53,366 nt of DNA from Saccoglossus kowalevskii (Eukaryota; Hemichordata; Enteropneusta; Harrimaniidae). The notes under the pieces are model-generated. The model was not told where the DNA came from. It did no database searches and saw nothing but the letters and a program-made list of their open reading frames with translations. Of the stretch, positions 2,893-42,595 are shown in pieces (the first letter of the stretch is position 1; each line of letters begins with the position of its first letter). The DNA lies in NCBI RefSeq assembly GCF_000003605.2, contig NW_003107109.1, positions 4,124-57,489 on the forward strand. Direction: 5' to 3'. The translations under genes and the position numbers were made by a program.

Positions 2893-2969
2893 ATGGGACC
2901 GTGCGTGCAATTGTTTATCATACTGGCCAACTGCTTAGTGTTGTTCGTTGCCTCCATACAGTCTGCAGC
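2893..2969 (+). CDS. GLRA: GLRA-like exon 1: signal peptide
   Basis: ATG at 2893 has a purine at -3 and G at +4. The exon encodes a short start followed by a hydrophobic core ([16 protein letters not shown]) and ends in small residues suited to signal peptidase cleavage near residue 25. It ends in phase 2 at a GTGAGT donor (2970). The split codon is completed by exon 2 as Ala26. A longer open frame on the same strand (2739-3032) overlaps it but is in another frame and has no family similarity. Confidence 0.85.
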
Positions 2970-11900: not shown

Positions 11901-14900
11901 TTACTATAACAGTTAACTACAGAGTCATTTTAAATTATGACGTAGTGCAATACATATTGTCACTATAGATTGTTAAGACCTGTTCTACTATAATAAAAAA
12001 TCCATAGATGTTTTTTTTTTTTTACTATTTGCCCTTTTGTAAGTAATTAAAGGGAGAGCACACTTCGCATAATCATTGAAAAGTCTGTATGGTTAAATAT
12101 TCAATGCAGCCGTGGCCAGTTCACAAACTGCCTCTGGCAAAATAAGTTTGTCAAGAGGTTTCAAAATATTAAGCCGTCATTTCACCTTCTTGGGGTTACT
12201 GGTTACCATGGGACCAAGCGCACAAATAAATTTCATGGTATTCAGGGGCGACTCGCATTATGAAAATGAATGTTACTAGAGATTATTATATAGACCAGTT
12301 CGAAAACAGATGCAAGCTTTTTAAGGGACACGTTCAAATAAATTATATAAACATGTTGTTGCAACGTCCCCGTACTGCCAGAGTTTTTACTTTCTCTGCA
12401 TGTGGTAATAATTTAGTAAGCTTAAAGCCAAACCTACCAACGATAAACAGTTTTGCACTGTACGAACTTTAGCGTTCAGTGACGGAATTATATTTCCAAC
12501 ACGCGCTATACGACGAACGTGACGCCAATAACCCGAAACGCGCTCCGTGTCACAGACGTAGTGTATCCCCACATAATTTGACATTCAAACGTTGTAATCC
12601 GGGGTGACGATACGTTTCAGAACAAACACATGATGCGGCTTTTATCGGGATAGTAAATTACATTGTTTTTCGGAGCTAGGTGTAATGACATTTATTTGGT
12701 CTGAGTATTTTGTACTCATTGCCCAGTAGAGGCTTTGTAAATATCTGCACCGAACGTCGTAAATATATATCATAACGGGTGGATGCGTTGAAAGCTCCTT
12801 AGTATACATGTCCCAGCGGAGACGAACAGAAGTGTGCAATAAATCACGGCATATTATCCCACTAACAAAATACGTTTTGGGATTTTTTCTACGATCAGTG
12901 ATTCGATTGACTTGCAAGACGACGGTTATTCAAACTGCATGATAACTATTTAGTACTATTTACGTGCTTGATGTTTAAATGTATATCTGGATAAATCAAT
13001 TCCTGATTGTGTCATTTGAGACGTTTTTTGGGAGAAATAACTATTATATATCTATCTTTGTAATAAATCAAGAACAATTCGTGAAGAGATTCTTTTAAGT
13101 TGACATGAGTCCGCGTCTTATCATTTTGGAAGATTGATTGATTCAAGCATATACCATACTGGCTAATTGTGTTTTCATGTTAGTGAAGGGGAGCACATAT
13201 TGTTTTGCTTCAAAATACATTTTTCATGCTCTCCACATTATATGCACGACAGATGTTAGTCATCGTAACACATACTGAATATATCATTGTCCTGCTGTTA
13301 AATAATTGAGTGTGTTTCAGAATAACGAATGCAAAAATATTGCATTTAAAAATGCCGATCAACCACAGAAAAAATAATATTTTGCGTTCTACGACGAGTT
13401 AACATCTTACGTATATTTAAAATCTGCGTTGTGACTAATAATATACAATATATCATTTGCGCGTATATCCCTGAAATTTTCATTTGATTCCCTCCCGATC
13501 AGTCTACGTTACGCATTCACGAGTTATCCTTTCTTACAAGTATCTAGAGCTTTCTGAGATAGTTCCTAGATTTAAACAAACATATGCAGCCATGTGAAAC
13601 GTATTACACTGATGTGTGATCAATTTCTCATCACCGCAACAAACTCTTGGGTTATGCGCGGAAAACTGAAAAATAACGCACTGACATTTGATATTATATC
13701 TAGTCGCCACAAGCGACAAGTGAAAATATCATAACGAGTAATAGAGCGTGGTGTTTTCCGGGAATAGCTTCTTTCTAATACGTCGAACTGCTTTTCTGAC
13801 AACTTTGAGGCTTTAATGAGCACGAGTACTGGACCGAATATAGGTGCTTTATTCCATGGGCGAGGCAACTGCGACAGTATTGTTATGCTAAATTAGCTAA
13901 ATATTTAGAGGGTATTGCAAGACAATCTCCGTGATATCGGGTGCCGGGTGTTTATACAAGTTATATTGGTTTTTAGACAGTCAATTGCGGTTAATGATTG
14001 GATAGACTGAAAGTTATAATATAACGCTCCAAGTTTAAACTGTCAAATTTTCTGTTCGACAGCTATTTTTTTAGTTGACCGTGAAACGCTAGCTAAAAAT
14101 TGACAAGTAAACAATATGTATAATTATCGTTGGTCATAGAAAGTTATGTGTACGGCACGGGGACACACATGGTAGATTTGTTAACGTCCGCAGTGATAGC
14201 CAAAAAAATGTCGTCGTCAATATGAGGGTCATCTATTACTGTAGAATTAAGGGGACCGCGTGTTTATGAATATATAATTAACTCAATTGTTTTTGCTGTT
14301 GTTGGTGTTTAAAATATGGTCATTTAATTTGATGAACATCGTTGTTATTCTTTTGGATTGTAAATATGATTTAAAAGACCTCCGCTGCACTGTACAATTG
14401 AATGAGGCTGGTAAATTACGTTTCCAATTGTATTGATGTGCTGGGCACAGCGATTGAATCTTGGAAATGAATCGGTAATCGAGAGAAAGAGAGAGATTGT
14501 ACTTCCCGTGCCGCGTCGACGCGTCGCACGAACATCGCAATATCATTTACATGTACTTGGTTTATCGATGTATATGTATTAGACTGACTAGTATTTCTCA
14601 TCAGCAAGTGTTTTGTCATAATTAGTGTTGTGTCCACCATCATTCAAATACTTGTATTGATTTTCCTTCCTACGTTAGTTAAAGACTGCGGCAGTCTCTC
14701 AGTCTCTCTCTTCGATGGCCGGGCATTTGTTGCCACTTGTATTGAGTATTTGCACAGATACGACACAGGCCTTACTTGAGCAATAATTCGTCACAAAGTT
14801 TCCATAGAAATAGCAATGTATTTTATTTTGAAACGTATATTTAAAATACCGAAATGTCCTTGCGTTAAAGCGCGGGANNNNNNNNNNNNNNNNNNNNNNN

Positions 14901-17900
14901 NNNNNNNNNNNNNNNNNNNNNNNNNNNNNNNNNNNNNNNNNNNNNNNNNNNNNNNNNNNNNNNNNNNNNNNNNNNNNNNNNNNNNNNNNNNNNNNNNNNN
15001 NNNNNNNNNNNNNNNNNNNNNNNNNNNNNNNNNNNNNNNNNNNNNNNNNNNNNNNNNNNNNNNNNNNNNNNNNNNNNNNNNNNNNNNNNNNNNNNNNNNN
15101 NNNNNNNNNNNNNNNNNNNNNNNNNNNNNNNNNNNNNNNNNNNNNNNNNNNNNNNNNNNNNNNNNNNNNNNNNNNNNTGCACAACAGTCAAAGTCGCCAT
15201 TTTTGTTTATATGAGACCCCATATATCTCGCACATGCGCAGCGCGACGACTACCGCGCTTTAACGTTCGCTTGAGTTCCCTGCAGTGTTTCGAAAAAAAA
15301 CACAGTAAAAATATAGAAAATAGCAATGTCACGTGATTTCATGGTCGACGATCTATATTTTGACGCATGTAGAGCAAACCTGCAGGCATTACAGTTCCGT
15401 TCATGATACTATTTATTATTGGTAAAGGTGATATTTCTAAAAGGTGTTAATTATTTCTATTACGTAATGTTATTGACTTAACATTTCCGCTATTCAAGAT
15501 ATCATCACTGTATGTCTCAGTATTTCGTCACGTTACTTGCAGCATCTAGAATCCCCATTTTACATTAATCGTAGATCAGGCGATTGGCTTAACAGATGCA
15601 GCCTGTTCACAGAACCAATATAACTGTTTTGTAGTATACATGGCATGCCAGTCACGGTTTTTTCTGTGTGTACAGTTTTATCGATTTCTCTTACACACGA
15701 ATCATGCATCGAATCCGCTTATTCCAGAAAAATGCTTTCAGTCAATTTTAAACAGGGCGAGAACATTACCGATGCCATTTCCAACATGTCAAGCCCACAA
15801 ATGATGTAAAGGTTAATTACATACTGTTTTCCAAGTAAAGCATCATACGCTCATCAGAAAATGTGAATGAATAAAATATTGATTTCACTCTTGACGTTGT
15901 GATGTGTAATAAACGAGACATTGCGCACACATAGACATTGCGCACACATATACATTGTACACACATAGACATTGTACACACATAGAGTTTCAGCGAAGAC
16001 GAAGACGAGGTTGATAATAAGCACAGAGGGTCACTAAAACTGTTTGTCCACCGCAGTTATAGGGAGAGCGTATGTATTATTAGTACAGCGATAAATGTGA
16101 AATCAGAAACTCACACACTCCATTGCAGAATGCATGTTTGTACACAAATCTTGTTGAAAGAGTTCAAGGGTAGTGATTGACATGTATTGGGATCTTGAGC
16201 GCATTTACTTGCATGGTCATATAAACCTTTAATATCAGCAATTAGTTTAGGCTTACCATATATCTACTTTTGCAAACTTACCCGGCAGCCTTTGCGCTTC
16301 TCCAGGGGCAGTCTGTAATACGCCAATTCGGTTCACATCAGAACACTGAACTGAGCTGCAAACAGCTTGATTTTAGTCTTTTGTCGACACTATTCCCTTT
16401 CAGAAAATACAAAATACATTATATTTCGATATACCGTCAAAATACACAACAGTGCTATGCAGCAGCAAAAAGTAATGATTCGAGAGACGAATTGCGCAAG
16501 CGTAGATAAAATCCATCAACGTGCGCAGTCCGGGTGCGCAGGCGAACTCGCACCAAGCTCGATAAAAAATCAAGCGAAATCGTTACACAATCATACCCCC
16601 TCCCCAATAAGGTAGTTTAATGATGACATCAATCGTGGCAAACTAGTCCTTCAATAAATATCTTGTCCGCTTGACAAATTAAAGACGTAAATCTCGAACG
16701 AAAGTTTTCAAATGGGGGTCAAATTAAGGTCATGAGCTATAATAATATATTAAAGAGGCATCTTTTATGACAAAAAAGTATACCAGCTACAAGACAAGAT
16801 CATATGTATTAGAATGGTTTTATGTTTTAACGCAATTTCGGCATGTATTTGAGTCACATAGTCATGCATCCATCTTGAAATAGTAATCCAGTAATGACAC
16901 GTGACAGTGTGCCTATGTCCGTCTTCGTATTCAGTATTCAGAGACGATATCGCAAATTTGATCTGTCCTGGGAGAGAGAATAGATTTCGGTTCGATTCAA
17001 CCTCATGGGAGTAGCTATACGAATGTCAGAGATGCTGGTGTGCATAATTTAGTGAAGCTACAAATTATGTTACGTACATCGTGTGATAGAAAGGGAATGG
17101 TAATTTAAAGGAGCACACTGACATGCGACCCCAGCTAAGATGAGGAAGCCCTTCTAGTAGTAATTGGAAATATAATTGTACATATGGTTCTGAATGCAAA
17201 TGTTTGATAAACGTCATTTGTTGTGTTTCTGTAAGAGCATCGACACAACTAACATTAAATCATATGATGTCGTGCTGTGTTGTTCTTTTTATATGATTTG
17301 TCACTGAATGCGACAACCAATAAACAAACCATGGCAAAAAACGTTGGCACACAAGTTGCATCGTACGCAATAAAATATAATGTATAAAATCACGCAGTAT
17401 ACAACGTCGTAAAACGCCGATCTCCCTGGGGCACATGATGGTTACACAAGAAAGCCGTAGTAAAATACACCTACATTGCAGTATTCACTAGCTTGCTAAG
17501 CACCAATCAACCGCCGCGTGTCTTCATTACAGGGGACCAAACAATTTTGTAGAAGTGCTCTCGTTATAAAACCAACGCGGATTGGTCATATGTTTCCACG
17601 ACGTTCACTCATGAATATGCGAATCATAGCTTCCAAATTTAGACATTGTTGCTGTATTTTTAGTTTGGCTGAGATGCAGCGGAAAACACCATGGCAGGCT
17701 AGGATGGTATTACACTATAAATTATTACCTCACGTAATATAGTACAACCCATTACATCACGTAATATAGTATAACATATTACATCACGTAAATAGTGTAC
17801 TATTTACTACAACATGGTACATTACGTAATATAGTACAACCTATTACATTACGTAATACAATGGAATGTATTGCATCGTGTAATATAAGATAATGTACAA

Positions 17901-20900
17901 CTAAAATAATTACATCACGCAATAAAGTTTACACGACACATCCACAAATACGGTTTATTCAAAGGCAGCAAGCAGCCTTCATAGGGGGTGCCAGCCATTA
18001 ATTTTTCATTTATTGCATTTTTATTCTGATATTATATACGGGTAAACACAACAAATTTTAGAAGAAATATTATAATGGACTTTTTTGGAAGTATTCTTTA
18101 TTATTTGGATTGAACTGCAACTGCAAAATGTTTTTCATGTTATAGATTTTTTAGTATTTTAGTGAATTTATCAGCTGCATTTCTCAAATTCGGCATTATT
18201 ACTTTATTATTGTGTAATAACTGTTCTGATAATTGTACTTTTTTTTTCTAAACTTCTAGTTCTAACAATATTTTGCTACTAATAATATAATATGAGTAAT
18301 CCATCAAAACCATGACAATATTATATATTTCCTGAACAAAATACGCTAACCAACCAACCAACCAAACACAAGATAAATATGTTAATTTACCACATAGGTA
18401 ACACATAATTTATAAGTAATTAATATTATTAAAATAACATTACCCGGTACATGTCACGACACGATTACGCAAAGAAACTATGCAAAATACGAATATTCCA
18501 TTTGTTTAGATATATAGTGTCCTCAATGGTTTTATGTGTTCTGTGAAATTACAAAGTGTGCCGACGTATATGAATATACTTCCATTGTATGCTTTTCTCC
18601 ACGCATCTAAAATCAATATAAAATAGGACGTCCTGTAGTTGTTGTTGTTTTTACAGACATAGCGTCAACAGTGTTCAATTAGTGTGAAATTTGAAACGTG
18701 TACTCCCACGGGAAAACGGTTTGAAATCAAACAACATTGCATTTATATTTCACTTCCGGCAATCGATTAAGATCACACCGAGGCACTCCAATTCTTTAGA
18801 AACATTGTGACGTCAGACACTTGGCCTATATTACACAAAACAAAGTATTCATGCGAGACTAATGTGATACTTATAGAACTCTGCTAGATATGTGTACCAC
18901 ATGTATTACGTCATCACTTATATACTCCCGCTCCTTTTGTCAACACTTTTGACACGTTTCTCTGTTTTAGAAACAAAATATGATTTAAGCCAATTATCAC
19001 GATATCACAATAAGAATAGTGTGAATAAATATCGCCGATAAATTATTATGCTAACTCCTCGGCTGTTGGGCACATCAACGAGTACAAACTGAGACATTAC
19101 CAAGCTTTAACTTGGTATTTTTAGGTGATTGGAAGGTATCGAAGGAGTCACCGTCAGTAATTAGTGCAAGTCGCGCCCAGGTCATACTTGTAATTCTCAT
19201 TAAAACAACGTATTGGATTATTGGAAAATCAATGTTTATCAACACAAATTCGCATAAGCAGCCCTTAACGTGTTCGCCAAGCATCAGAGAGATTGTGGGT
19301 CTGGTTGTCCCGGCTGGTGTTTCTATCCTCAATGCACGAACACAGTCACACCATCCCTGTCGCAACGGGTAGCGAATTGCAGTGAAGTCATTCCACAGAT
19401 CTCTATATTCTTGGCCTGTTGGTCTATAAATAAATGAATATTAAGTAAACCTGCTACCACGATAACACTAATGTTCATATATTTCGGTAAGTGGGATAGA
19501 TGAACAATGGTGTCGAACAATGGCGGTATTTACTTCAAGGTGTCGTTATGCTAATGTAATCGCATTATGCCACTAAAACATTAGACTTGCGTGGGATGGA
19601 GAAAACCCCGTGTGATTTTACGTAATAGTAGAGTATACAGGGTGATACATTCAAATCCAAATTAATGTATTTAAATTGGCATTTTGTTTCGTGGAAGAAC
19701 ACACATTGATAGATTGTTTGCTACATTATTGATCAATTTCATAAATGTAACACGTTATTATCATGTTAGTGTAATCGATATTATCTTGGATGATATTTCA
19801 AAGCTTAATGACGTGTCAAAACTACGTAGAAATGCGCACAGATTATGTAATTGATTATACGGGTAATAATTTGATGCGAGGATACTATTGAGTCATATAT
19901 CATTTTAGTTTTTACTTCGTAATAATTGTATTTACGAATAGTATAGTTGGTGTTACTTTTATGACAAACAGGTTTCATAACTGAGATGTGTTCGGTCATA
20001 AATTTGAACTTTATTAATATTATCTACAGCATAATGCTAATTTGACTGACAATTTAGTTTCCTAACATGTAGTTACCTTAACATGTTACCTTTTGTATCT
20101 GTGTTTGTTTTCGATATTATATGTTTACTTCATCTTAGTTGTCACGTGTTACTCGATTGATTTCGCATTACACTACCTGACGTTGTTTCTATGTATTCAA
20201 CAACATTCATTATATTTAGACTATAATGTGCAAACCGCGTTACAGTAATTCTGACTCTCAGAAAAAAATACCTCTGTCTTTACACCCGACGTTTCACCTT
20301 TGAAATTCAATCTGTGTGTTCACAAAAATCATCCTTGATCAAAGTAAAATCCCCATGTGATTGGGTAATTACTGAACCATGACATTATTTTCCAGGTCCA
20401 AATGGAAATGTCATGTTCCGTGCAATTATATTTCTTGCAGTGTTGTATTTTTTTTGCTCGCTCCATCTGTCAAAATTGATAAGCAGTTGTCAAGTCGCTG
20501 ATGGTTGCGTCTTTGTTTCAATAATGTTTTCTTTGTGGTGGAGTAATCTAAGCACAGAGCGTCGTGAGAACTGCCAATTCAAACACTCATGCATTTCATT
20601 TGTGTCATTTGGTCGGATATTGTCGTAAACTTGTGAAAGTATGAAAATAAAATAGCAGAACTTGAAATTATGGGATTGGTCTAAGTGACTATCGGTGTCT
20701 AATGTGTGTGCCAGAATACTTTCTTATCAGGAGTTATCGTTCTGTTCTTTGCATTATGCAAATTAGATCTGTCGATTACACGTTGTAAATGACATGCATG
20801 ATAACAATGTGATGGCAATGTCAAGTTCAATCACAGACTATAAATTGCTTATAGTCACGAGTTGTCAACATAATGCCAATAAACGAAAATTTTATTTGTT

Positions 20901-23900
20901 AGGCGGTTACTAGAATGCATATGACTGGAGCGTGTGGGGGTTACAATGGAAAAAAACCAAATAAAATGGACACAGGTGCATTAATAATGTATTAAGCTTC
21001 ATATTGTTTGTATCCGTAGGACCCCCTGTGGAGGTAATAACGGATATGTTTGTTTCAAGTATGGACTCTGTACAGGAAACTACTATGGTAAGTACCACAT
21101 GTGTGGTAATGTATTTCTATTATAGCTACGTATAATGACCTCATTTAGTGTCTTGCTTTTCCTCAACGACAACCAGCGGTATTTGGGATCATTTAATGTC
21201 TTGCTTTTCCTCAACGACAACCAGCGGTATTTGGGATCATTTAGTGTCTTGCTTTTCCTCAACGACAACCAGCGGTATTTGGGATCATTTAGTGTCTTGC
21301 TTATCCTCAACGACAACCAGCGGTATTTGGGATCATTTAGTGTCTTGCTTTTCCTCAACGACAACCAGCGGTATTTGGGATCATTTAGTGTCTTGCTTTT
21401 CCTCAACGACAACCAGCGGTATTTGGGATCATTTAGTGTCTTGCTTTTCCTCAACGACAACCAGCGGTATTTGGGATCATTTAGTGTCTTGCTTTTCCTC
21501 AACGACAACCAGCGGTATTTGGGATCATTTAGTGTCTTGCTTTTCCTCAACGACAACCAGCGGTATTTGGGATCACATTGAGTTTACAATAGCCTTCAGG
21601 TGACAGCCCTGACTTTTTTAGGTCAAACCATGTTAGTACGTTCACGGTCAAACCAATGTCGAATTGCGTTGATGTATTTAGTACAGGAAATGTGACGGCA
21701 GCATTCACAATGTTTACGATGGACTCAACATCTGTATTCGTACACACTTTTAAAGTCGTAGAAAAGTTGTTTGAAATAACACGTAAATCACTATATACTA
21801 ACTTCAGTCACCTGTGTTCCAACATACATATGTATATAGATGTATTTTAATCTCCTTTAGAAATCAGATAAAATAACAAATACCACATTACGATGGTTGA
21901 ATTTTATAAAGTTTCGAAATTGTTATCTAAACTAGATACCTTAATCACCATGACAACTAAGGCGATGTCGGTCTCTTGAGAATTACCTTCAACGGGTGTT
22001 TTTTTATCGTGTATTTTAACTAATCATGTTGGAAGAAAAAAAAACGATGGTGATAGTTGATACCAAACAAAGATAAGGCTCCGATGTAATTATTATTCGT
22101 ACACTTTTACCATTAGCAATAATCTATAAAATGTGCCATTTGCTTTTATATAAATGTATTTTACATCATTAACGTTTGTGACGTTTATCGCAAGAATCCA
22201 GGAGTAGAGTTGCTGTAAGTTATATCGTCTATTTCAGTTGTCAGATGAGCATGAATCAAATGCTTTGTGTCATTATAATAATACTCAAAATATACTCAAC
22301 AGAAGTTACTTGAGGATATTCCGTCACCATTTACTAGTTTGTGACGAGACTATGTGACGAGTTGAATCATCATCGATCGGATAAATATAGACAAGTATAC
22401 TTTACTAGACACAGAATAACAAATGGGAAAAACGGGACAAGAATTTCCGAAATACTTATTGCTAACAAAAAAACTTTTATAATGGGCAAAGTTTACGTTT
22501 AAAAAAATGACACGAATTTTCAATTAATATTAAACGCATGTTTCAAAATTACTTATTTCTACAATCTGTCTGTTATTTGGGACATGTTTATAAGGCATTG
22601 CCAACATTTCGCTCACGTGCAGATATATCACAGATGCATTAACGTATATGTTCCCTCACAGGTTACCTTTAATATAATGTATTGAAATTAGCATAGACCC
22701 ACTGCCACATTTATGTTGTAAACATTCTTACATGTCTATGCGCCCTGCTTTCTCTGCTATCGAGGTAACGTTGTCCTTAATACGTTAAATGACATTATTT
22801 TTCATATATATGTTGTCTTGTCCGTATAGAAGAAAAAACAACTATAGGTGTGAGCACCCTTCTATAATGGACAGACGTGTGAACAAACAATTATATCTCA
22901 TATTAGCATAGTTGTGAGTCCTTCCTCGTGGGAAAGAGTTAAATGAGAACTGATCTCATCCGTCAATACAGGCAAACATACATGACGTGTATGCTGTAGT
23001 TGTGCGTAAACACGAACTATCACACGGTTTTTCCAAACCATATTAAAATGGATAATTTGTTCATGTAAATACGCACGTAAATACTTCTACATTAATCAAA
23101 AATATTCGTGACTTTTTATAAAGTACTGGCCTACAACTGTGAACTCGCCGCACTATTAATACTATAGCAATATTATTTTATTTACTTGTAAAACCGTGGA
23201 CTTTGCATTATACGGCGCTTAATAATATTTCAAAACCTATTACGGGCTACTGACGAAAGTATCTTACGGACGTGTTTCTGCCCAATTAGCCATATTTACA
23301 ATAAAGACTTATTAAAGCAATACACTTCCATGTCAGAGGGTTAGTTCGAACCCTGCCCTCGTCAAATTATTAACTTGTCCGAAATGTGAAACGTGAGAAC
23401 AATTTACAGCCTATATACAACAATATAAAGTGAAAATAACCGCTTCTTACGTATCATTTTTCACATTGCGTTGTTACGGTCCTGTGTATAGTATGCCATT
23501 CCTAACCACACTAACCACGAAGCGAGCATTTCTGTGGTTAGGACTTGTAATTATCATCTAAGTAATCACGTTTTCAATTCCAATTATTTTCTATCTCGCT
23601 CACCACAGATTGTAAATTCAAATCTAAATGTAAATCAAACTTGACAGGCCAAAGAGGATAAAGAAGATAAATATTCTTAGGTCAACCAGAAGACTTCATT
23701 CATAATGCAATGTAATTCTTTTTATATATGGATGTAGGGTTGTAGGCGCTCGGAGCCCTAAAATTATAATTTAGCTTTTTTCTATAGATAGCTGTCACTA
23801 CAGATTGTAACTGAACACGTGTAATGACTGTTTATGTGTTTTTTAAATGGACATTGTCTACGTTGTGGTTCTTCAGTTGGGGAGAGATTTATCTGCCAGA

Positions 23901-26900
23901 GTTTTAAGCCTGTTGGAGTTGCAATTATGTGTTTCTCAAGGCATTTGTGTCCATATTTGTTTAAATTTTGTTTTGTTTTCGGCCAATGATGCCGAAAGTG
24001 TTATAACACTTGCATGAACATACCGATAACTGTTTTGTAAAATATTGTTAATAATTAATTATATGAACATTCAGGCATTACTTTTTAGGTAAGAAAAATG
24101 TCTTTTTGAACGTTTCACATTAATTTAGGCGTTTTTTAGTATGACCTACTTGTGGTAGAACTTCGAAATGTTACCAATGTGAACGTAAGGATATTTTCAG
24201 AGCTGTCCACAAACTGCATCTATACCTTGAAAGAATTGGGGTAAACAAAACGATTGCCAATAAAATGCCAAGTGTTCTAAGCACGATCCACCTCGGGCGT
24301 GGTTGGACAACGTATCATATCAACTGTCTGATTTCAATCGTCTTTACTGTTCGAAGGGAAGTCCCAAGCTTGTTCCATTTGAATAAAGCCACGTCACTGC
24401 AATCCATTATTCATATACTGAATTTTGAAGGATCACATTCATAGATAATGCAAAGCCAATACTAACACGTGCACACAGTAGGATACCACGGAATGGCGCA
24501 ATCAAAATGTGAATATACTAACAAGAGTACACCTACGACGGTCGTTCAATATGTAATGCCCCTGACCCAGGCATAGAACGAGATTAATGAAACTTGGCAC
24601 AGTTATTAGTTTTTTTTCTACATAAGAACCACCCAGAGATATGCATTTCTTCCATCGTTTGATGCAGCTCTGGACACCGTTTTTGTAGAACACCCCAGGT
24701 TGGTCCTCCAACCACGTCGTAACTTCAGAAATCAAGGCTGCATCATCTGGGAAACGCTCTTCTTTTAAAAACAACTTCATGGTCAGGAAGAGATGAATGT
24801 CAGAGGGTGCAAGGCCAGGAGAGTAAGGGAGATGGGGGGGGTGCATAGCCACAGGCCCGTGATTCTGATCTGGCGACATGCGAGTTGTGGACCAGAGCGT
24901 GGTCCTGTAGGAAGAGGATACCTTTAGCTGATCTTGCCCCGCCTCTTGATTTTGATAGCTTCTCTTAATTTCATCAAAAGTGAAGCGTAACAGGCTCCTG
25001 TAATTGTGGTATCCTTTGCCAGGAAATCCGTCATCACTACTCCGTCCTGGGATTTGGTCTTTGGATCATAGTAATGAACCCAAGTTTCATCATGTGTAAT
25101 CAGTCTTTTGAAAAACTTTGACTCATCTTCTTGGCAAATTCATGATCGAGCACTCGACGCGTTCTTGCTTCTGGAAAGGTGTGAGCAACTGAGAATCCAT
25201 CTTGCCGACACCGTATGCATATGCAAATGGTCATGAATGATAGTTTCCCCAGAGCCTGTACTGATCTTGACCTCTTGGGCTATTTGGCAAACAGTAATGC
25301 ATCGATCTTCCAAAATGGCTGCCTCAACTTGACGGACCATGTTTGATGCCTCATCAATGGCAGAAGAGGGACAACCAGGTCTGGGAGCTGTTTCCACAGA
25401 CTTCCGCCATGTTTGAATTCACGATGCCAGCGTTTTACAGGGTCATATGATGGGGCATCATCACATATTTTTTGTTCATTTCATCAAAAGTCTCATTTGG
25501 TATGCGTCCTTTCAAATACAAAAAACGGATCACTGCGCGACACTCAACTGGCTCCATTTCACGCCAGACTCAGTTCAAACACCTGTAAATCAGGAACCAC
25601 AATTAGTTCGGTGCTGTTTATTGCAACATAACCCATAGAGATGTACATCATTACACATGCAAATTTTCATCTAAATCAGACAACTGAAAGTGGGTCAGGG
25701 GCATTACTTATTGAACGTCCCTCGTAACAATAACGGATTTCTCGGGATTCTGGAAGATGAAATTGTACCAAGGGTAATTTACAAACACGTGTACACTGAA
25801 GGATTTCACGAAATTCAGAAGGGGACTATAAATAATGGAGTATACTATTACGTGTACACTTAACACACTATTATAGTGCCGAAAAACTACATGAATACAG
25901 CTACTAATAAAATGTACCNNNNNNNNNNNNNNNNNNNNNNNNNNNNNNNNNNNNNNNNNNNNNNNNNNNNNNNNNNNNNNNNNNNNNNNNNNNNNNNNNN
26001 NNNNNNNNNNNNNNNNNNNNNNNNNNNNNNNNNNNNNNNNNNNNNNNNNNNNNNNNNNNNNNNNNNNNNNNNNNNNNNNNNNNNNNNNNNNNNNNNNNNN
26101 NNNNNNNNNNNNNNNNNNNNNNNNNNNNNNNNNNNNNNNNNNNNNNNNNNNNNNNNNNNNNNNNNNNNNNNNNNNNCACCGCTCTTTCAGGATTCTAAAT
26201 AGTCTGTCCATTGGGAATTTCTTTTATGTAACCACTGGTACCGCACCGAACTGCATAATGTTTGTTTACTTGAAAGATTTTTAATATGAAATCACACACA
26301 ATGAATTGAATTGGATGTTGTCTTGCAAGGTTTAAGTGTTCTATTGTGTATGACTTATATAGTGTAACTTATGTTAAATACAGGTGTGTGGAATGGATTC
26401 CTGTGAACATCGTACACCTCTGAATTTGGCCTTTTGAAGATTTTGCTTAACGGTTGCATTGTCTATTTGGCTGTCGAAAAGACGCTATAACGATCCACCA
26501 GACTGTATCTCACCTAAAGCTTACCCGTTGTTACCCGTAATGCAGAGCAGCAAAAAATGTCACTGTGAATAAGTCCCGCTATTTCGATCACCCCAACTGA
26601 ACCGACTGGAATTCATCGAAGTCCGAGAGTTTTTATTTTCAATGTACGCATAGTGAGCGAACTGAACTTGTTCAGTATATAGAATATAAATACCTGGACC
26701 TCGTCAGGTTACATGGAAAATTTGAACGACACATGCGACTATAATTTAATTTACCAATTTGTGGCAAATCCAATATTTCGTAAATGCATTGTTTATTAAA
26801 TATAATTATCTTTCAGGTAAGCATTTTAATGCAGCACAAATATATGCGCCTTTGGAACGTTTCGATTTGTTGAATCATCACCCTCTGAACCAAGAATATT

Positions 26901-29900
26901 GACCCACTAGTACTGTAACCCCACTTGACAATCAGGAGGCATACGACCTATGGTTTCATTATATATATATTATCTATGTTGTAGAGTTACACAATGGACA
27001 TCTTCATGAGACAGCAATGGAACGATCCCAGACTGTCATTCACCGAGTACAATCACAGTGTATCGGTGCATACGCAGCTTTTGAATCGGATGTGGTTCCC
27101 TGATCTCTTCTTCCCAAACGAGAAAAGAGCCTACCAGCATGACGTCACCACAGACAACAAACTTTTACGATTGTTTCCCAACGGCGATATTTTATACAGT
27201 GTAAGGTACGTGACGTCACACTTTGTCGTGCTTTTCACATGGACATATAATGTGTGAAAATTTAGCAGAATTTGTTTAGTTTATAATTTATAAAAGAAAT
27301 TTGAAAGAAATAAAGTCAAAAATCACATGCATAGTTTCACCATTACGTCATTTTTGGTAACATTCGCTAACTAGTTCTCGGATATTAATAGAATAGAAGT
27401 TCGGACATTTTAACAAAGATTTTGTAGTTTGTCACAAAGCTCCATAAATGACGCTATAATGCAAACCTCACAAAATCCATTATCGAAACGTCCATGTCTA
27501 TGTAATAGACCTGGTGTCAGCCTTTTCAGTAATCAATGAACATAAAACGAAGGAAAAACATAGATATAAGCAGTTTATTTTATGATAATTTCCAATATTT
27601 CCAGCTGTCACCAGATGAATAAATATAAGTGCATACCCATTGGTTCTTGTAATTGTTTTACGGGCTTCAAGTTACGAGCCTGAATGTGCCTCTCTTAAAT
27701 GCAGGTGACAGTTAAAGCGGTCACGTTTACGACTCAGAATAGTTTAGATTATAGGTGGAGGCGATGCAACTCGATAAACCCCATCTGCAGTGGTACTTTG
27801 CTTGGTATTAATTGTACTTAGTGGACAAGTGTGATCAGTAATAAAATAAAAGACAAAAAATAACGCTAAAACTTTACCAATACATTCCGCTCCGATTTCC
27901 GTTATTGCAATTGATACGGCTAATCTAATTTACAGTTTATTATGTAGAGAATGAAAACCTAGTGAGTGACTCAGTCCCAACCGTCTCCAGGGAATCCTGC
28001 ATGTTTATCTCAGAGAACGATTTGATTTGCCTCCGTTTTTTAAATCTAGTATGGCCTTGATAAGTAATCCTGCAACTGCGAGGTCGATAACGTGACCTAC
28101 TAATAGAATATATTAGGATCAAAACAAGTAATTTCGGTATTCGGGGCCTATGACGTCACATAGTATGTCGATAAATAGAATACATACCTCAGTCACAAAT
28201 ACAGCAATGTGAATCGCGAAGTTTATTGATTATATTATGAAAATAAAGGCCAATTTTATTAATTTCTTGGGCAAACTGATTGCCAGTTTATAATAAATAA
28301 GTTTATCATGAAAATACTATTCCTATCATTTTCAATAAAGAAGTGTGATGCTTTGAATCACGGGGAAAGACAAACATTAGAAAGAGCATATGGAGTTAAT
28401 TAGTGCACGGGGTATTTTCTGGTGTCCAACCGGGCCATTCCTCCCCGTATATGGGGCGGTCGACCGAGTGCTTTGTTATTCACTCGCATTACCCACAATG
28501 CAACGTCCCTGTCCAGATCTCAATGGCATGTACTAGTCAAGTACCATGATATTTCGTATTAGTAAGATAAGGTAATTGCCAATCTGCAGCTGAATACGGG
28601 GCTGATGGCCTGGACATCGAAACATCAATATCGTTCCCTGCAATTACTACTGTATCAAAAGTACAATATGTCAGTGTGTACATGGCAAATTTAATAAATC
28701 GACAGACATTTCAATTACAAAGACAACATACAAGTATGCTATATGGTTTGTAGCCGCGTGTTACGATGTATTAAATGCATATTAAATACAATTTTTAATA
28801 GAGTTCGCTTTACGGTTATTAAACAAAAATAACTCTAATTACTAATAACTCGATATTGATTAATAGACAGACATGGCAATACATGACTTGTTTAGATTAA
28901 GGTTCATTTCGACCCAATTTATTATTCTTCAACTTAAAGTTCATGTCACTTATTCCGAACCTATTGCAATACATATTATTTTTTTTTATTTCGCTTGGGA
29001 ACATACGGCAACCATGAAATATTACTATTATTAGACTTATAAGCATATTGCCGGTATATATCTTGATATATATGGTTTTAATGCTTTACGTTTACAAGCA
29101 TTAACATTATGTGTTACTTCTTACGCTGATTACTGTTTCCATCTCTCAAAGTATGTGTTACTTCTTACATTGACCACTGTTTTCATCTCTCACTGTATGT
29201 GTTGCTTCTTGTGATGACCACTGTTTCCACCTCTCTCTATGTGTGTTAATTCTTACGCTGACCACTGATTCCATCTTTCACTGTATGTGTTACTTCTTAT
29301 GCTGCCCATGGTTTCTATGTTTCTCTGTATGTGTTACTTTATACGCTCACCACCGTATTATTTATTGTATAGGTTACTTCTTACACTGACGTGTATGATG
29401 TCGCTACAAAAATTTCCGATGGATCGTCAACAATGTGCAGTACAGTGCGAAAGCTGTGAGTATATATGCGAGTAGGTTCTTGTAACTCATACTTGATTTC
29501 GATGACACGCGTGACCAGCGACAACTTTAGAGCAAAGTGATTATCTATTTTGAGCTAGAGTAAAAACCTAGTCGGGCGAAAACGGATGAATAATCTATAA
29601 ACATATTTTTTTCAGATGGATTTACTACAAAAGATTTATTATTCAAATGGCGGGACGTTGAGCCTATTCAAAGGGATTCAAACCTTCAATTGCCACAGTT
29701 TGACATCGTTGGTACACGAACACTACTCTGCACAAAACAATATAACACAGGTAATTAGTTTCTGATAGTAATTTGTTACTAATTCTTTCTTTTAGTTATG
29801 AATTTGTTACGGTGCAATGTGTTATAATTATATATGAATTTGCTATTTTTTTCCCAGTAAACCGGAAATTCGGATAACTGTTGCATTTTTTTCTCAACAT

Positions 29901-32900
29901 ACCTCAGGTAACTACACATGCGTGGAAGGCCGATTTATCATGACTCGACAGATGGGATACTATATGATACAAACATATATACCCAGTATGCTTATCGTTA
30001 TACTATCGTGGGTGTCATTCTGGATCAGTGCCGAATCATCACCAGCTAGAGTCGCCTTGGGCATCACTACCGTGCTCACCATGACAACGCAGAGCTCAGG
30101 CGCCAACGAGACGTTGCCCAAAGTGTCGTATGTGAAGGCAATAGATATATGGATGGCCGTGTGTTTGTTATTCGTATTCGCCGCCTTAGTGGAATTTGCT
30201 GCTGCTAATTATAAGTCTCGCAAGAAAATAGGAAAAGCCGATCGACAGAAACGGCAAAAAGAAAACAAGGTGAGACAAACTACTTCTGTCTGGAGACAAA
30301 TTTTGTATGGGTCCATAAAATTCGATATGAGTTTACTCGTATTCCGCGTTTTCGAATCTTTTATATATCAAGTTTGAACTATTTTTAGCCGTTTTTCCAT
30401 ACGTTGACCATGCGCTGTATTATTAATCAGGTCACAATTGTATATTTATTAGCTGTATAAATTAACTTCGGGTGCGAACGCCTGAATCTTCCCAGGCCAT
30501 CACTGCGCATGATCACGGCACAAGACGCGCACCAATAAGTGCATAAAGAAAAATCGTGTAAACAATTGTTCGACGCCATCTTTGTTACTTATAGTCGCGT
30601 GCGTTGTGTTGACAGTAGGGCAATTTCATTGGCGAATTTTATTTAGCCCGATAAGACACAATTCAAAAAGAATTGATATGTCAATGAAACAACTCCCAAT
30701 GCTAAACAATATATTAATAAAAGATATCCATATTGCATCTATAAAGATAACGCCCCATCCCAAACGTCTCGTCAGTGTTTAATTGATGGACGCGGGAGCA
30801 CCCAGTTACACTCACAGTAGTGCCACGTAGATAATATGTCGCAAAACTGACGTAACGTTGAGATGTGTGAACTGAGGAAATCGCGTTTTTAGTTCACGCG
30901 CGTGGTGAATGGGATTCAAGATGACGGCACGCACGATTCGTGTTTCGCCGTGTGTCAAAATGACTCGAAATATTATTTGAAATTGAAATATTTTCAGTAC
31001 GTTGTCAAATTATCTTATCAATGAACAAGGTTCCGATAATGTTTTATTATGAATGAACTGTTTCTCATAATTTGTGAAATAACAAACAAAATGGCGCTGC
31101 CAACTGACCGGAAGTGCACCATTTTCAAACTATTAGGATACTTATATCTCTTTCATACTCTTCCATATATACACATGTTATCTATCGAGCTCGCTGCGAC
31201 TGCTTCGTTCGCAAATAATATGTAGCAGGCAATGCCTGGCGAGCGAGCTCAGCCGAGTAGTTTATTGCTGTACTAAAAATAGAACTGACGTAACCATAGA
31301 AGGTCGAAGCGTGTGAACTGCGGAAGTCGGGTTATTAGCTCTCGCGCGTGTTGAGTGGAATTCAAGATGGCAATACGCACGATTTGTTCGTCGCCGCTGA
31401 TCAAAATGACCCCAAATATTATTCAAAGCTGAAATAGTTGTTCAGTCCGTTGACAGAAATTGATTGCATTTTTATTGAACAACATTCTGAAAATGTTTTA
31501 TCAAAAATGAGCTGTTTTCGCTCAATTTGTGAAAAAAAGAAACATAATGGCGGCGCCCAATTTACAAACTGTTAGGGTATAGAGGGTATATACTCTTCTA
31601 TATGTTCGCTAAAGGGCTCGCGTCGCTGCGCTTGCTATGAAATATACAATCAATGTTAATACAGTTAAGGGAGTCTATCAATTTCATCAACTCTCGCATT
31701 TATTTATAAACCGCACGACATTTCAAATGACCACGTTGTCACATTACATACTGACCGTCGTATGTATCTAAATAACGATGGACTAACATAAGCCACAATT
31801 ATCTTGCATATTGTCAGAATAATTATAACTAACGACAGACAGGGTTCGTGCAATGAAATTTCAAATGGTCTAAATATGTATATATGTAATTGTGACTCAC
31901 ATGGAGGTAATCTTGGCGATTATATTAACAACTTGAAACGCTTTTGCATCATCACCCGGAATCCAAGTTCGTTGCTAAACAAGAATGAAATTCGAGGTCA
32001 CTTATTCTCAAACTGAAATTTCACAATGAATATGATTTTTGATTATGCAAATATCATGCACATAAATTGGTTTATACCATTGATGAGACTTTTGCTGTTT
32101 CTCATTGTGCATAAGCATATTCTTGTTTTATTTTTATTTTTAACTCAAAATTGTCCTACGCAAAACAGAAAAGTATATGCCCGCTGTTATCGTTTATTTT
32201 GCAAACCAGGAACAATATCTGTCTTTTCTTTGTGGCTTTGCTTGTTTTCAATTAGTGCCCCAAAATTTAAACGTTATGTCAATATTTCCTCTGGTATTTT
32301 CTATATTCAGGTCAAATTTCTCGGTGGTTGTCATGCTTCCCCCAAACATGAGATCATATGTTATTTTTTGGGATTTGTTAGAGGCATTTGTGAAAGGATT
32401 TACAAATAGGTTAATAATACATCTGAAAATCTGTATTAAAGTTTTGCACGTAGAGCCAAAATCTTGATAATTTCCATACATATTTTCTCCCAATGAAAAA
32501 CCTAACCGTTTTTTCAGTAGTTTGCTTGGGGACGTCTTGAACATCCATCATATCAATCAAGTGAAAATAAACTTGATGAGCGTTAAATATTAACAAAAAT
32601 CTAGCAAAGTTTCAGCATGTAGCTAAATGCATAAAGTCGAATGATTTCTGAGTAAACGCAACGGGACGCTTCTCTACCCTATCACTGGCGTGAATAGAAA
32701 AACATATGTTGAATACATTTTACGTATATTCTTGCCCGTGACATACTCTAATTTGTTGACATTTTTATTATATGTTTCAATTTTTAAATGTAATTCAAGG
32801 TCATGTTTGAGCCTATTGTGTGATGATAGGAAAAAAATGAGCTACGAAATTCATTTTATGCTTAAAGGGCGGTAGTCGTTGCGTCGCGCATGTGCAACAT

Positions 32901-33530
32901 TTGTGTTGATAAACATTGATTTTCCCACAATCCAATGCGCTCTTCTATTGGAAGTCATAAGTATGAGGTTTGACCTGGGCGCGACTTGTACTAATTACCG
33001 TCAGTGACTCCTTCGATAACTTCCAATGACCTAACAAATACCTCATTCAAACTTAACATATCAATTTGTGCACGTTGATTTGCGCAACAGACAAATTCGC
33101 CATCTTTGTTTATATGAGACCCACATATCTCGCGCATGCGTGGCACGACGACTACCGCCCTTTAACTATAATAACTAGCTATAGTATATTGATACTGCAA
33201 TGCAATCTTTAGCATATCATAGTTTTAATGACTTTCTCATTTCATTTTCAGCTGAGCAACGAAAACAGCGAGAACAGTACTTTACTGGAGATGAAACCAA
33301 TACAGACTTACATCAAAACAGATTTTAAATCTATGCCATCGACGGTTACCAGTGGCGCGCAGCTGTCGGACACCGAGGTGAAGGTGGTTCTTCACAAACC
33401 ACCAGAAACAGACTGGGCACAGTACATCGATTACGTTTCGCGTGTAGCCTTTCCTGTGGCGTTTCTTCTGTTCAACATAGTCTACTGGACCATGTACATG
33501 ACATGGTACTTTAATCCAGACGATGATTAA
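2893..33530 (+). CDS. GLRA: Glycine receptor alpha-like Cys-loop chloride channel subunit, 8 coding exons, 437 aa
   Basis: Pentameric ligand-gated anion channel subunit of the plasma membrane. Eight exons with GT-AG borders join in one frame (77+89+68+221+83+135+362+279 nt) to 437 codons plus stop. Order: signal peptide (residues 1-25); ligand-binding domain with YDLRIRPNF (46-54), [16 protein letters not shown] (75-90), Cys-loop C159/C173 with 13 residues between, second disulfide C218/C229 typical of GlyR; TM1 about 242-264; TM2 with the anion-channel P-A-R motif (270-272) and [16 protein letters not shown]3 about 300-326; basic M3-M4 loop; TM4 about 407-430. Alignment to human alpha1 is from memory. 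The alpha1 residues F63, R65, G160, K200, Y202 and T204 are kept; F159, Y161, F207 and R271 are not. No obvious gephyrin-binding motif is seen in the loop. An orthologue of GLRA1-4 before their split is likely; an individual vertebrate paralogue cannot be assigned. Confidence 0.95.
2970..3602 (+). other. Intron 1 of the GLRA-like gene
   Basis: 633 bp, GTGAGT...TTAG. The overlapping open frames inside it (2935-3198 minus, 2948-3190 plus) are short and unsupported. Confidence 0.85.
3603..3691 (+). CDS. GLRA: GLRA-like exon 2: N-terminus of ligand-binding domain
   Basis: Acceptor TTATTTTATTAG, donor GTAAGT. The exon encodes residues 26-56, including [17 protein letters not shown], which matches the family signature FLDxLxxxYDxRIRPNF. 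An N-M-T glycosylation sequon lies at residue 27, just after the predicted signal cleavage. Entry phase 2 and exit phase 1 fit exons 1 and 3. Confidence 0.95.
8430..8988 (+). repeat. Diverged direct repeat pair, about 480 bp apart
   Basis: 8430-8523 and 8906-8988 share AAACATACG, an AAAATAARACA stretch, TTGCCGAGTT, GTTTAGAATAA and TTTGATTGTC/TTTGTTTGTC in the same order, with small insertions. This looks like two old copies of one unknown interspersed repeat. Confidence 0.5.
14868..15260. mobile_element. TTAA MITE family B, interrupted by an assembly gap
   Basis: The left edge reads TTAAAGCGCGG and the right edge CCGCGCTTTAA, so both ends keep TTAA. The right 80 bp (about 15180-15260) are close to the right end of the element at 32862-33168 (shared TTTGTTTATATGAGACCC, then GACGACTACCGC). 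The centre is replaced by 300 Ns, so length and content are unknown. Confidence 0.65.
14878..15177. other. Assembly gap (300 N)
   Basis: Run of 300 Ns. Open frames reported across it are artefacts. Confidence 1.
15920..15986 (+). repeat. 18 bp tandem repeat, about 4 copies
   Basis: Units of the form ACATTGCGCACACATAG and ACATTGTACACACATAG repeat in tandem. Confidence 0.7.
17725..17890 (+). repeat. Degenerate ~28-30 bp tandem repeat with TTAC..ACGTAA core
   Basis: About six units of ATTACATCACGTAATATAG plus a short linker (AGTACAACCT). Each unit carries a near-palindromic TTACATCACGTAA or TTACATTACGTAA core. The copies differ by several bases, so the array is not recent. Confidence 0.65.
19063..19274 (-). 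mobile_element. TTAA MITE family B, truncated copy in reverse orientation
   Basis: The + strand here matches the reverse complement of 32870-33075 over about 200 bp (shared AAAATCAATGTTTATCAACA, CAAGTCGCGCCCAGGTCA, ATCGAAGGAGTCAC). One end stops at a CCCTTAA-type terminus near 19272. The opposite terminal repeat is missing. Confidence 0.7.
21020..21087 (+). CDS. GLRA: GLRA-like exon 3 (68 bp)
   Basis: Acceptor ATCCGTAG, donor GTAAGT. It encodes the end of Gly56 and [18 protein letters not shown] then ETTM (57-78), matching GPPVxVxxxIFxxSxxSxxETTM of GlyR alpha. The length of 68 bp equals exon 3 of vertebrate GLRA genes. The glycosylation site that human alpha1 has here (N38) is replaced by Glu60. 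No second, alternative exon 3 (as in GLRA2 exons 3A/3B) was found in the flanking introns. Confidence 0.93.
21144..21575 (+). repeat. Minisatellite, nine 48 bp units, nearly identical
   Basis: Exactly nine 48 bp units (432 bp) beginning TTTAGTGTCTTGC and ending TATTTGGGATCA. I count only two single-base differences among all copies (in units 2 and 4), so the array expanded or was homogenised recently. Because 48 is a multiple of 3 and the unit has no stop in several frames, long repetitive open frames arise on both strands. These are artefacts, not a gene. Confidence 0.95.
24536..25724 (-). mobile_element. Decayed mariner (Tc1/mariner) DNA transposon with both TIRs
   Basis: 1189 bp element flanked by TA (24534-24535 and 25725-25726). 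About 34 bp terminal inverted repeats share CGTTCAATA and GTAATGCCCCTGACCCA with two internal mismatches. The minus strand encodes a mariner transposase in pieces. It is inserted in intron 3, antisense to the GlyR-like gene. The length is slightly below the usual ~1.3 kb. Confidence 0.93.
24600..25557 (-). pseudogene. Broken mariner transposase
   Basis: Starting at the minus-strand ATG at 25557 ([17 protein letters not shown]), the reading runs through [75 protein letters not shown] and [15 protein letters not shown] to [14 protein letters not shown]. All three acidic catalytic positions of a DD34D enzyme are recognisable (THDET, LQDHA, APSDI). The frame changes near KYVMM/DDAPSY, before ETAPRPG, and after KRRGKIS. 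About 30 residues are missing between DPKTKSQ and DGVVMTDF, near 25045. It cannot be active. Confidence 0.9.
25919..26176. other. Assembly gap (258 N)
   Basis: Run of 258 Ns in intron 3, 0.2 kb past the mariner. Confidence 1.
26985..27205 (+). CDS. GLRA: GLRA-like exon 4: loops D, A and E region
   Basis: Encodes residues 79-152: [17 protein letters not shown], then [11 protein letters not shown] and [19 protein letters not shown]85 and R87 correspond to alpha1 F63 and R65 on the complementary face of the binding site. The exon is 221 bp against 224 in vertebrates; the missing residue lies in the variable stretch after NEY/TEY. Of the two zinc-site histidines of alpha1 (H107, H109) only the second is kept (H130). 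Phase 0 fixes the acceptor at 26983-26984 rather than the AG two bases later. Donor GTACGT. Confidence 0.95.
27206..29372 (+). other. Intron 4 of the GLRA-like gene (2.2 kb)
   Basis: GTACGT...TTGTATAG. The donor is followed at once by a perfect CRE (27211-27218). The rest is AT-rich without genes, up to the 44 bp tandem repeat (29110-29372). A ZNF143/Staf-like motif TACCCACAATGCAACG lies at 28490-28505. Confidence 0.85.
29110..29372 (+). repeat. Minisatellite, six 44 bp units abutting exon 5
   Basis: Units start at 29110, 29154, 29198, 29242, 29286 and 29330, each 44 bp (last spacing 40). Consensus begins TGTGTTACTTCTTACGCTGA and ends in a pyrimidine-rich TTTCCATCTCTCACTGTA. The next unit would start at 29370, and is the exon 5 acceptor and exon start itself (TAGGTTACTTCTTACACTGAC). 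The units are moderately diverged. Confidence 0.85.
29373..29455 (+). CDS. GLRA: GLRA-like exon 5: Cys-loop
   Basis: 83 bp, the same length as vertebrate GLRA exon 5. It encodes [18 protein letters not shown] and then [10 protein letters not shown] (152-179), with the invariant F-P-M-D of the Cys-loop between C159 and C173. An extra cysteine, C177, stands where GlyR alpha has Leu (IMQLES). Acceptor TTGTATAG, donor GTGAGT, exit phase 1 (the Tyr180 codon is split). The first 19 bases are nearly identical to the tandem repeat just upstream. Confidence 0.95.
29456..29615 (+). other. Intron 5 of the GLRA-like gene (160 bp)
   Basis: GTGAGT...TTTTTTTCAG; short, nothing else seen. Confidence 0.9.
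29616..29750 (+). CDS. GLRA: GLRA-like exon 6: loop B end to loop C start
   Basis: Acceptor with a T-rich tract and CAG; donor GTAATT. It encodes Y180[11 protein letters not shown] through CTKQYNT (218-224). It is 135 bp, one codon shorter than the vertebrate exon, in the variable strand after the loop B region. C218, K220, Y222 and T224 match alpha1 C198, K200, Y202 and T204. Human alpha1 has F-G-Y where this exon begins with Y-G-F. Confidence 0.95.
29751..29907 (+). other. Intron 6 of the GLRA-like gene (157 bp)
   Basis: GTAATT...ACCTCAG; short, nothing else seen. Confidence 0.9.
29908..30269 (+). CDS. GLRA: GLRA-like exon 7: loop C end, TM1-TM3 (fused vertebrate exons 7+8)
   Basis: Encodes residues 225-345: [10 protein letters not shown] closes the second disulfide (C229); [19 protein letters not shown] is pre-TM1/TM1; [20 protein letters not shown] is TM2 with Ala at the 2' position as in alpha2/alpha3; [20 protein letters not shown] is the TM2-TM3 loop and TM3; it ends in a lysine/arginine-rich stretch (327-345). 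At 362 bp it equals vertebrate exons 7 and 8 joined, less one codon. Acceptor CCTCAG, donor GTGAGA, exit phase 0. Confidence 0.96.
30841..31636 (+). repeat. Diverged tandem duplication, ~370 bp units
   Basis: 30841-31205 and 31279-31636 align over their whole length with many substitutions (shared ACTGACGTAAC, GTGTGAACTG, ATTCAAGATG, GCACGA, AATATTATT, AAAATGTTTTAT-like, ATGGCG, CTCGC...CGCTGCG). No coding frame is kept in both copies. They could be two copies of one unknown element or a local duplication. Confidence 0.65.
32862..33168. mobile_element. TTAA MITE family B, copy with both ends
   Basis: Starts TTAAAGGGCGGTAGTCGTTG and ends CGACGACTACCGCCCTTTAA, about 307 bp, TTAA on each side, with short imperfect terminal repeats followed by GC-rich GCGCATG motifs. 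It is non-coding. Related copies lie at 14868-15260 and, reversed, at 19063-19274. It lies 83 bp upstream of the last GlyR-like exon. Confidence 0.8.
33252..33530 (+). CDS. GLRA: GLRA-like exon 8: M3-M4 loop, TM4, C-terminus
   Basis: Acceptor TTTCATTTTCAG in phase 0. It encodes residues 346-437: a polar, Ser/Thr/Glu-rich intracellular loop, then [20 protein letters not shown] and [14 protein letters not shown] (TM4, matching the IDKISRxxFPxxFLxFNxxYW signature), a short acidic tail and TAA. The whole M3-M4 loop is about 80 residues. Confidence 0.94.
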   Translation: MSNENSENSTLLEMKPIQTYIKTDFKSMPSTVTSGAQLSDTEVKVVLHKPPETDWAQYIDYVSRVAFPVAFLLFNIVYWTMYMTWYFNPDDD

Positions 33531-38429: not shown

Positions 38430-38820
38430 ATCGTGTGTGTGTGTGTTGCATGAAATCTGTACATGTATCGTGTGTGTGTGTTGCATGAAATCTGTACATG
38501 TATCGTGTGTGTGTGTGTATGTTGTATGAAATCTGTACATGTATCGTGTGTGTGTGTGTTGTATGAAATCTGTACATGTATCGTGTGTGTGTGTTGTATG
38601 AAATCTGTACATGTATCGTGTGTGTGTGTTGCATGAAATCTGTACATGTATCGTGTATGTGTGTTGCATAAAATCTGTACATGTATCGTGTGTGCGTATG
38701 TTGCATGAAATCTGTACATGTATCGTGTATGTGTGTTGTATGAAATCTGTACATGTATCGTGTGTGTGTATGTTGTATGGAATCTGTACATGTATCGTGT
38801 GTGTGTGACATGGAACCTGT
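38430..38820 (+). repeat. GT-rich minisatellite, ~34-43 bp units, about 11 copies
   Basis: Each unit has GAAATCTGTACATGTATCGTG followed by a GT run of variable length and TTGCAT or TTGTAT. Length differences between units are mainly in the GT run. The left side is cut by the assembly gap. Confidence 0.9.
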
Positions 38821-41800: not shown

Positions 41801-42595
41801 GGATTCAAATCATTTGTGGGCGGAAATAATTTTGAATTGGTTTGTCACTGGTAAAGTATTATTGGTAACACTGCCCGAATTGCTGAAAATCATTTATTTT
41901 TTGTCATGACTGTACAGGGAATTATGAATACAAGATAAATCAACCAAATCACAGGATTTAGTCATCAATAAAATATGTCTAGAGTTGGAAAAATATGCAA
42001 TTTAGCTAATTTACATTTACTAATCATCCACTATAATTTGGAATGAGATTACGTCAATGTACTTCCTTAGAAAATTTGGTCCAAATCAGTTTGTGAGATA
42101 ATTTCAATTTAATAAAGGCTTGCATTGTACTTCACACACAGGAGCCAACAAGAGATGGACAAACAAGTTATAACTCATAATACAAACAAATCATTTTATT
42201 TTATTCTTTTCCATTCTAAATATAGTAAATTGGGTAAAAGATAATGTTATTTTGTAAAAAGTCCATTACTAGTGTAAAATCTGTATTAGAAGCCGCATCC
42301 CTAATAGAAGTCGCACCCATTCTTTTTGAATGATTTGGAACCAAAAAATCATATTTTGAATTTACATACATTTATCTTCAGTTAACATTTATAATGTATC
42401 TAGGTTTGAGCAGTAAGTGGATGGGTGTTTACACATCTCATCTTATTACATTAATAAGGTATAAATCCTCAAGAATACCACAATTAACTATAACACTATT
42501 GACTATCTTGCAGAGTTCAGTAGAAGCAAATCAAATTCCCTGTATTACAAGAATATTTGTTCACAATAACAATAGCACATATTCTTATGTGCTTA
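38830..42595. other. Intergenic DNA with CTCF-like and ZNF143-like motifs and a C-rich stretch
   Basis: No supported gene. It contains a ZNF143/Staf-like motif (39027-39040), CTCF-like motifs (39077-39090 plus; 41339-41352 minus), and a C-rich, low-complexity stretch (about 41045-41235) that produces an artefactual proline-rich frame. Confidence 0.5.

Follow-up and report, generated by a model that had tools for sequence, protein, structure and literature searches.

Gene structure

The window (the whole stretch of DNA analysed, 53,366 nucleotides of Saccoglossus kowalevskii contig NW_003107109.1) holds one + strand gene at 2893..33530, with eight coding exons and a predicted product of 437 amino acids. 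In the predicted model, GT/AG borders are present at 7/7 introns and the eight exons form a single open frame. The features are as follows.

2893..2969, + strand: exon 1, with the start codon and a signal-peptide-like stretch (predicted solely from open frame, start codon, hydrophobic stretch and GT donor)
3603..3691, + strand: exon 2 (tblastn with GLRA1, splice sites)
21020..21087, + strand: exon 3, 68 bp (tblastn with GLRA1, splice sites, gene model)
26985..27205, + strand: exon 4, loops D, A and E (alignment and gene model)
29373..29455, + strand: exon 5, 83 bp, from the Cys-loop through E178-S179 to the first base of the Y180 codon
29456..29615, + strand: phase-1 intron splitting the Y180 codon (same phase in 23/23 readable donors)
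29616..29750, + strand: exon 6, rest of Y180, G181 and F182 (loop B), start of loop C
29908..30269, + strand: exon 7, end of loop C, TM1 to TM3, PARV pore motif
33252..33530, + strand: exon 8, with the intracellular loop, TM4 and the stop codon

Exons 1 to 3 lie far upstream of the remaining exons. Residues F85, R87, L148 and S150 of exon 4 correspond to human F63, R65, L127 and S129, and the codon of R152 (human R131) is begun in exon 4 and completed by exon 5. Exon 6 encodes Y222 and T224 (human Y202 and T204), and exon 7 encodes Y227 (human F207) and N291, placed at human R271. TM1 to TM3 are held in one exon, unlike the layout of vertebrate GlyR alpha genes.

A 44-bp tandem array (29108..29353, + strand) lies in the intron just upstream of exon 5, which begins at 29373 and opens with 18 bases that match the array unit. 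Five more copies of these 18 bases, with 1 to 4 mismatches, were found at 29113, 29157, 29245, 29289 and 29333; both strands of the window were searched without finding any others, and 3 shuffles gave none. It looks as if the array either arose from coding sequence or expanded into it. Minisatellites with units of 48, 35, 66 and 42/85 bp are located at 21141-21575, 38435-38807, 42587-43463 and 53099-53353, respectively, the 48-bp one beginning 53 bases past exon 3. A broken mariner-like transposase remnant was recognized by eye on the minus strand within intron 3 (24502-25570), and a Pfam scan of one piece of it gave no match.

Outside the window, the mitochondrial contig of this genome (17,037 bases) has a COX1 with 7 in-frame TGA, in which ATA and AAA occur at conserved Ile and Lys positions. 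PMC2697986 assigns ATA to Ile in echinoderms and hemichordates, and AAA to Asn in echinoderms and to Lys in Saccoglossus; the code read here fits a hemichordate of the Saccoglossus kind.

Identity of the predicted protein

Both Neur_chan_LBD and Neur_chan_memb were detected in the predicted product by Pfam. The best PDB matches were GlyR alpha3 (381 bits), alpha2 (378), zebrafish alpha1 (373) and alpha1 7mlu (368), and the next were GlyR beta (285), GABA-A beta (272) and GluCl (260). The Cys-loop has two Cys with 13 residues between them, a second Cys pair is present in loop C (C218...C229), and M2 begins with a PAR motif (PARV pore), which at this place marks the anion-selective branch.

Identity to the GlyR alphas (human alpha1 8dn2, alpha2 9y7p and alpha3 9bp0) is 58.9 to 63.7%; the lower value is that for human alpha1 (219 aligned residues) and the higher that for alpha3 (245). 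The window protein has in common with them the double-Cys loop C, the PARV pore and 10/13 pocket positions, and differs from them by F159Y, Y161F and F207Y, by Asn at R271 and by a Glu that replaces the Asn of G-P-P-V-N-V (numbering of human alpha1). GlyR beta (7mly) also has Tyr at 207, but its loop B is F-G-Y and its identity is lower (51.8%). GABA-A beta2 and rho1 are like the window protein in having Tyr at 159 and 207, and unlike it in having Tyr at 161 and a loop C that has an Arg but lacks the Cys pair; nor are GABA subunits its best match. C. elegans GluCl alpha (3rhw) likewise has Tyr at 159 and 207 and, aligned by eye, Asn at the R271 place, but Ala at Glu157 and Tyr at 161. The window protein is most likely a GlyR alpha-type subunit of a pentameric Cys-loop chloride channel; the GlyR-like identity put forward in the first-pass annotation agrees with the PDB scores and with the tree below.

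Loop B at the exon 5/6 junction

Exon 5 ends at 29455 with TGC GAA AGC T/gtgagt and exon 6 starts at 29616 with tttttttcag/AT GGA TTT ACT, so that the predicted splice of exons 5 and 6 reads C-E-S-Y180-G181-F182-T-T. Among the 25 genes entered, the exon 5 donor is T/GT[AG]AGT in all 23 with a readable donor (the window gene and 22 paralogs), and the junction codon therefore consists of this T and the two bases with which the following exon opens; TAT or TAC was read as Tyr and TTT as Phe. The first-pass reading of this junction as C-E-S-Y180-G-F182-T-T, in its own numbering, is borne out by the predicted splice and the full model, and the E-S-F-G-Y it gave for human alpha1 by the sequence of that subunit. 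GlyR beta has the same E-S-F-G-Y. Loop B of the window protein, E-S-Y-G-F-T, departs from the E-S-F-G-Y-T that a passage of PMC4686643 gives for all GlyR subunits.

The paralog C4571 of the same genome keeps E-S-Y-G-F-T-T-K, and its Y, G and F codons are all synonymously different from those of the window gene. A comparison of 174 codons found no difference between the two genes in 67, a synonymous difference in 78 and a residue replacement in 29 (dN is 0.12, and NG86 gave no value for dS); the proteins are 83% identical over 173 columns and their clade has support of 100/99. Since C4571 keeps Y-G-F through synonymous codon differences, it is very unlikely that the motif stems from a base-calling error or a recent polymorphism, and one would naturally infer purifying selection on it. 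A sequencing or splice-reading artefact was rejected on the C4571 codons and the 23/23 donors in one phase.

Loop B motifs across the family

At least 134 exon matches to the GlyR-like family were found in the 572-Mb genome, and at least 41 to the TM1-M2 exon, the latter a hand count in which partial matches are included and long matches of 20-31% identity are excluded. The GlyR-like genes form a large clustered expansion (contigs C346, C451, C2442, C2750, C693, C4609 and C4668). Loop B was read at 24 of the roughly 41 loci. Among the 25 genes entered, C2343 had no loop B match and C451d no readable junction; in C346c, which lacks exon 5, the first base of the junction codon was assumed to be T, and C4609b was added later to the motif count and is absent from the tree.

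Among the subunits of this genome, Y-G-F was found in 3/24 motifs (window, C4571 and C2750b). The other motifs with Tyr at 159 were Y-G-Y (6), Y-A-Y (4), Y-S-Y (2) and Y-Q-Y (1), and those with Phe at 159 were F-G-Y (3), F-S-Y (2), F-R-Y (1), F-Q-Y (1) and F-G-F (1). Tyr is present at 159 in 16/24 motifs and Phe at 161 in 4/24; GABA-A beta2 (E-S-Y-G-Y), rho1 (E-S-Y-A-Y) and C. elegans GluCl (A-S-Y-A-Y) also have Tyr at 159. F161 is therefore the rare part of Y-G-F, and Y159 is common and not peculiar to the window gene. With three carriers, Y-G-F as a unique oddity is ruled out. An evolutionary two-residue swap was rejected as the simplest history, Tyr being the commoner state at 159, and a single change at 161 may therefore suffice; either the Phe of GlyR alpha or Tyr may have been the ancestral state at 159.

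The tree, of 30 rows (23 genes of this genome and 7 references), was built without the loop B state columns; the exon 4 part is missing from 4/7 reference rows and 8/23 gene rows. It is weak, with 9/27 inner branches starred and a midpoint split of 75/89. On this tree Phe at 161 takes a minimum of 3 changes and the state at 159 a minimum of 7, the GlyR alphas are the nearest references by path to the window gene, and C2750b, also Y-G-F, is placed apart from it.

Other pocket and loop changes

Thirteen pocket positions were compared with human alpha1 (63, 65, 127, 129, 131, 157 to 161, 202, 204 and 207). Ten are identical (63, 65, 127, 129, 131, 157, 158, 160, 202 and 204), and the differences are three aromatic positions, F159Y, Y161F and F207Y. 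Position 207 is described in part of PMC4006026 as the C2 aromatic, where GlyR beta has Tyr.

The M2-M3 loop reads S-G-A-N-E-T-L-P-K, versus S-G-S-R-A-S-L-P-K in human alpha1, and Asn (N291) takes the place of R271, as also in rho1 and GluCl when aligned by eye. Human R271 is a hyperekplexia site, where disease changes make taurine and beta-alanine less effective agonists of alpha1. N291 forms the sequon N-E-T (30105-30113). Loop C reads N-Y-T-C-V, versus S-Y-P-R-L in beta2; a glycosylation sequon N-Y-T begins there at N226 (29910-29918; positions 206-208), and N-x-[ST] starts the loop C exon in 11/25 genes.

Relation to the 1993 exchange

Schmieden, Kuhse and Betz (Science 1993) reportedly exchanged F159 and Y161 in mammalian alpha1 and changed its ligand selectivity. 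The first-pass annotation held that the window gene carries this double exchange naturally. Y180 and F182 do stand at the positions reportedly exchanged; what is not supported is the implication of two departures from a glycine-type norm, Tyr at 159 being widespread (16/24) and only F161 rare. The natural protein is not equal to the 1993 double mutant, because of the third pocket change F207Y and the Asn at R271. That mutant is said to have had neither of the two, and its pharmacology cannot, on that account, simply be carried over.

PMC6130310 cites the 1993 study on which residues make the receptor prefer glycine to beta-alanine, GABA and D-serine. No report of a natural Y-G-F was found in the open-access literature searched, which is no proof of absence. 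Saccoglossus glycine-receptor papers within the same open-access scope, judged by titles and abstract starts, gave nothing on Y-G-F, and searches of open-access literature for F159Y with Y161F, for a hemichordate glycine receptor with taurine and for 159/161 with beta-alanine found nothing.

Proposed ligand profile and alternatives

In the mechanism proposed here, R65, S129 and T204 would hold the agonist carboxylate and the amine would sit in an aromatic box of 159, 202, 207 and 63. Tyr at 159 would keep the ring and add a hydroxyl; with hydroxyls gained at 159 and 207 and lost at 161, the amine end of the pocket would be reshaped, and the longer omega-amino acids beta-alanine and taurine could therefore become better agonists than at vertebrate alpha1. 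Glycine would still gate the channel, and GABA would be at best a weak or partial agonist. The gene, the motif, the kept contacts and the conservation are read from the sequence, and the steps of assembly, ligand and efficacy are extrapolated. We put at about even the chances that the receptor would be such a glycine-gated chloride channel, with responses to beta-alanine and taurine stronger than those of vertebrate alpha1 and GABA at best weak or partial; its GABA response is uncertain. Vertebrate GlyRs already respond to beta-alanine and taurine, so the difference from them could be merely quantitative. Tyr at 159 may also say little about ligand, since it is found in 16/24 motifs of the family, and the subunit may work only in heteromers.

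Passages of PMC4006026 and PMC9462852 describe the carboxylate contacts and the aromatic box for the amine. The loop B Phe (PheB) makes a cation-pi contact with the amine of glycine, beta-alanine and taurine according to part of PMC6130964, weaker with beta-alanine and taurine than with glycine in an excerpt of PMC4686643, and TyrB makes one with GABA in rho receptors in the relevant section of PMC4006026. A GABA response would not be unique, because PMC7995613 reports GABA to be highly efficacious at a GlyR construct from zebrafish.

The motif could instead reflect ordinary drift in a hemichordate GlyR-like family that has greatly expanded, in a plain glycine receptor whose 161 hydroxyl is compensated at 207. 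This reading, possible if doubtful, draws on Tyr at 159 in 16/24 motifs with at least 7 state changes there on the tree, on the 10/13 pocket positions shared with human alpha1, and on a count of hydroxyls: exactly two Tyr among 159, 161 and 207 are found in 15/17 genes (shuffle frequency 0.00015) and in 9/11 clades (0.009). A hand calculation on the column frequencies puts the chance expectation at about 45%. The 17 are the genes with Tyr or Phe at all three positions; 6/23 genes with neither at 207 are left out (C1000, C2728, C451a, C451b, C451c and C3285), and the clades were collapsed by hand on a weak tree, C2750a and C2750c being counted apart. The exceptions are C2750c (no Tyr) and C4609 (one). 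The pattern was noticed post hoc in the same data used for the counts; C4609b, read after it was noticed, fits. Outside the family, GlyR alpha has one Tyr at these positions, and GABA-A beta2, rho1 and GluCl have three. The count hints that a Tyr at 207 may make up for the hydroxyl missing at 161. Against drift, C4571 keeps Y-G-F despite 78/174 synonymous codon differences, and the exchange is reported to change selectivity in human alpha1. The same count might also be read as a tuning code of two hydroxyls over 159/161/207 (Y-Y-F, F-Y-Y, Y-F-Y), in which the Y-F-Y type (window, C4571 and C2750b), apparently reached twice independently, would mark receptors for beta-alanine, taurine or GABA and not glycine; we think this unlikely.

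A GABA receptor is an improbable identity for the subunit. Its tyrosines at 159 and 207 resemble those of beta2 (E-S-Y-G-Y with TGSY) and rho1 (E-S-Y-A-Y with TGWY), and the by-eye Asn at R271 is shared with rho1, but GluCl has Tyr at both positions too and the pair therefore does not specify GABA. The PDB scores and the tree favour GlyR alpha, and loop C keeps the GlyR form C-T-K-x-Y-N-T-G-x-x-T-C without the GABA-type arginine: unlike in beta2 and rho1, no Arg follows the 207 Tyr, and part of PMC4338433 holds this loop C arginine to be needed for high-affinity GABA binding. A non-binding accessory subunit or pseudogenised copy is hardly probable, given the open frame over 8 exons, the 10/13 pocket positions unchanged and the dN of 0.12 against C4571 (dS not computable). 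In its favour is the Glu where GLRA1 has the Asn of G-P-P-V-N-V, presumably the Asn of assembly domain one. PMC6130310 calls an Asn of this domain essential for oligomerisation.

The first-pass observation is true, and its first reading was overstated. Y-G-F is kept in two diverged sister genes, and a third carrier groups elsewhere on a weakly supported tree. A residue pair that was reportedly engineered in 1993 to alter the selectivity of the glycine receptor thus occurs naturally.
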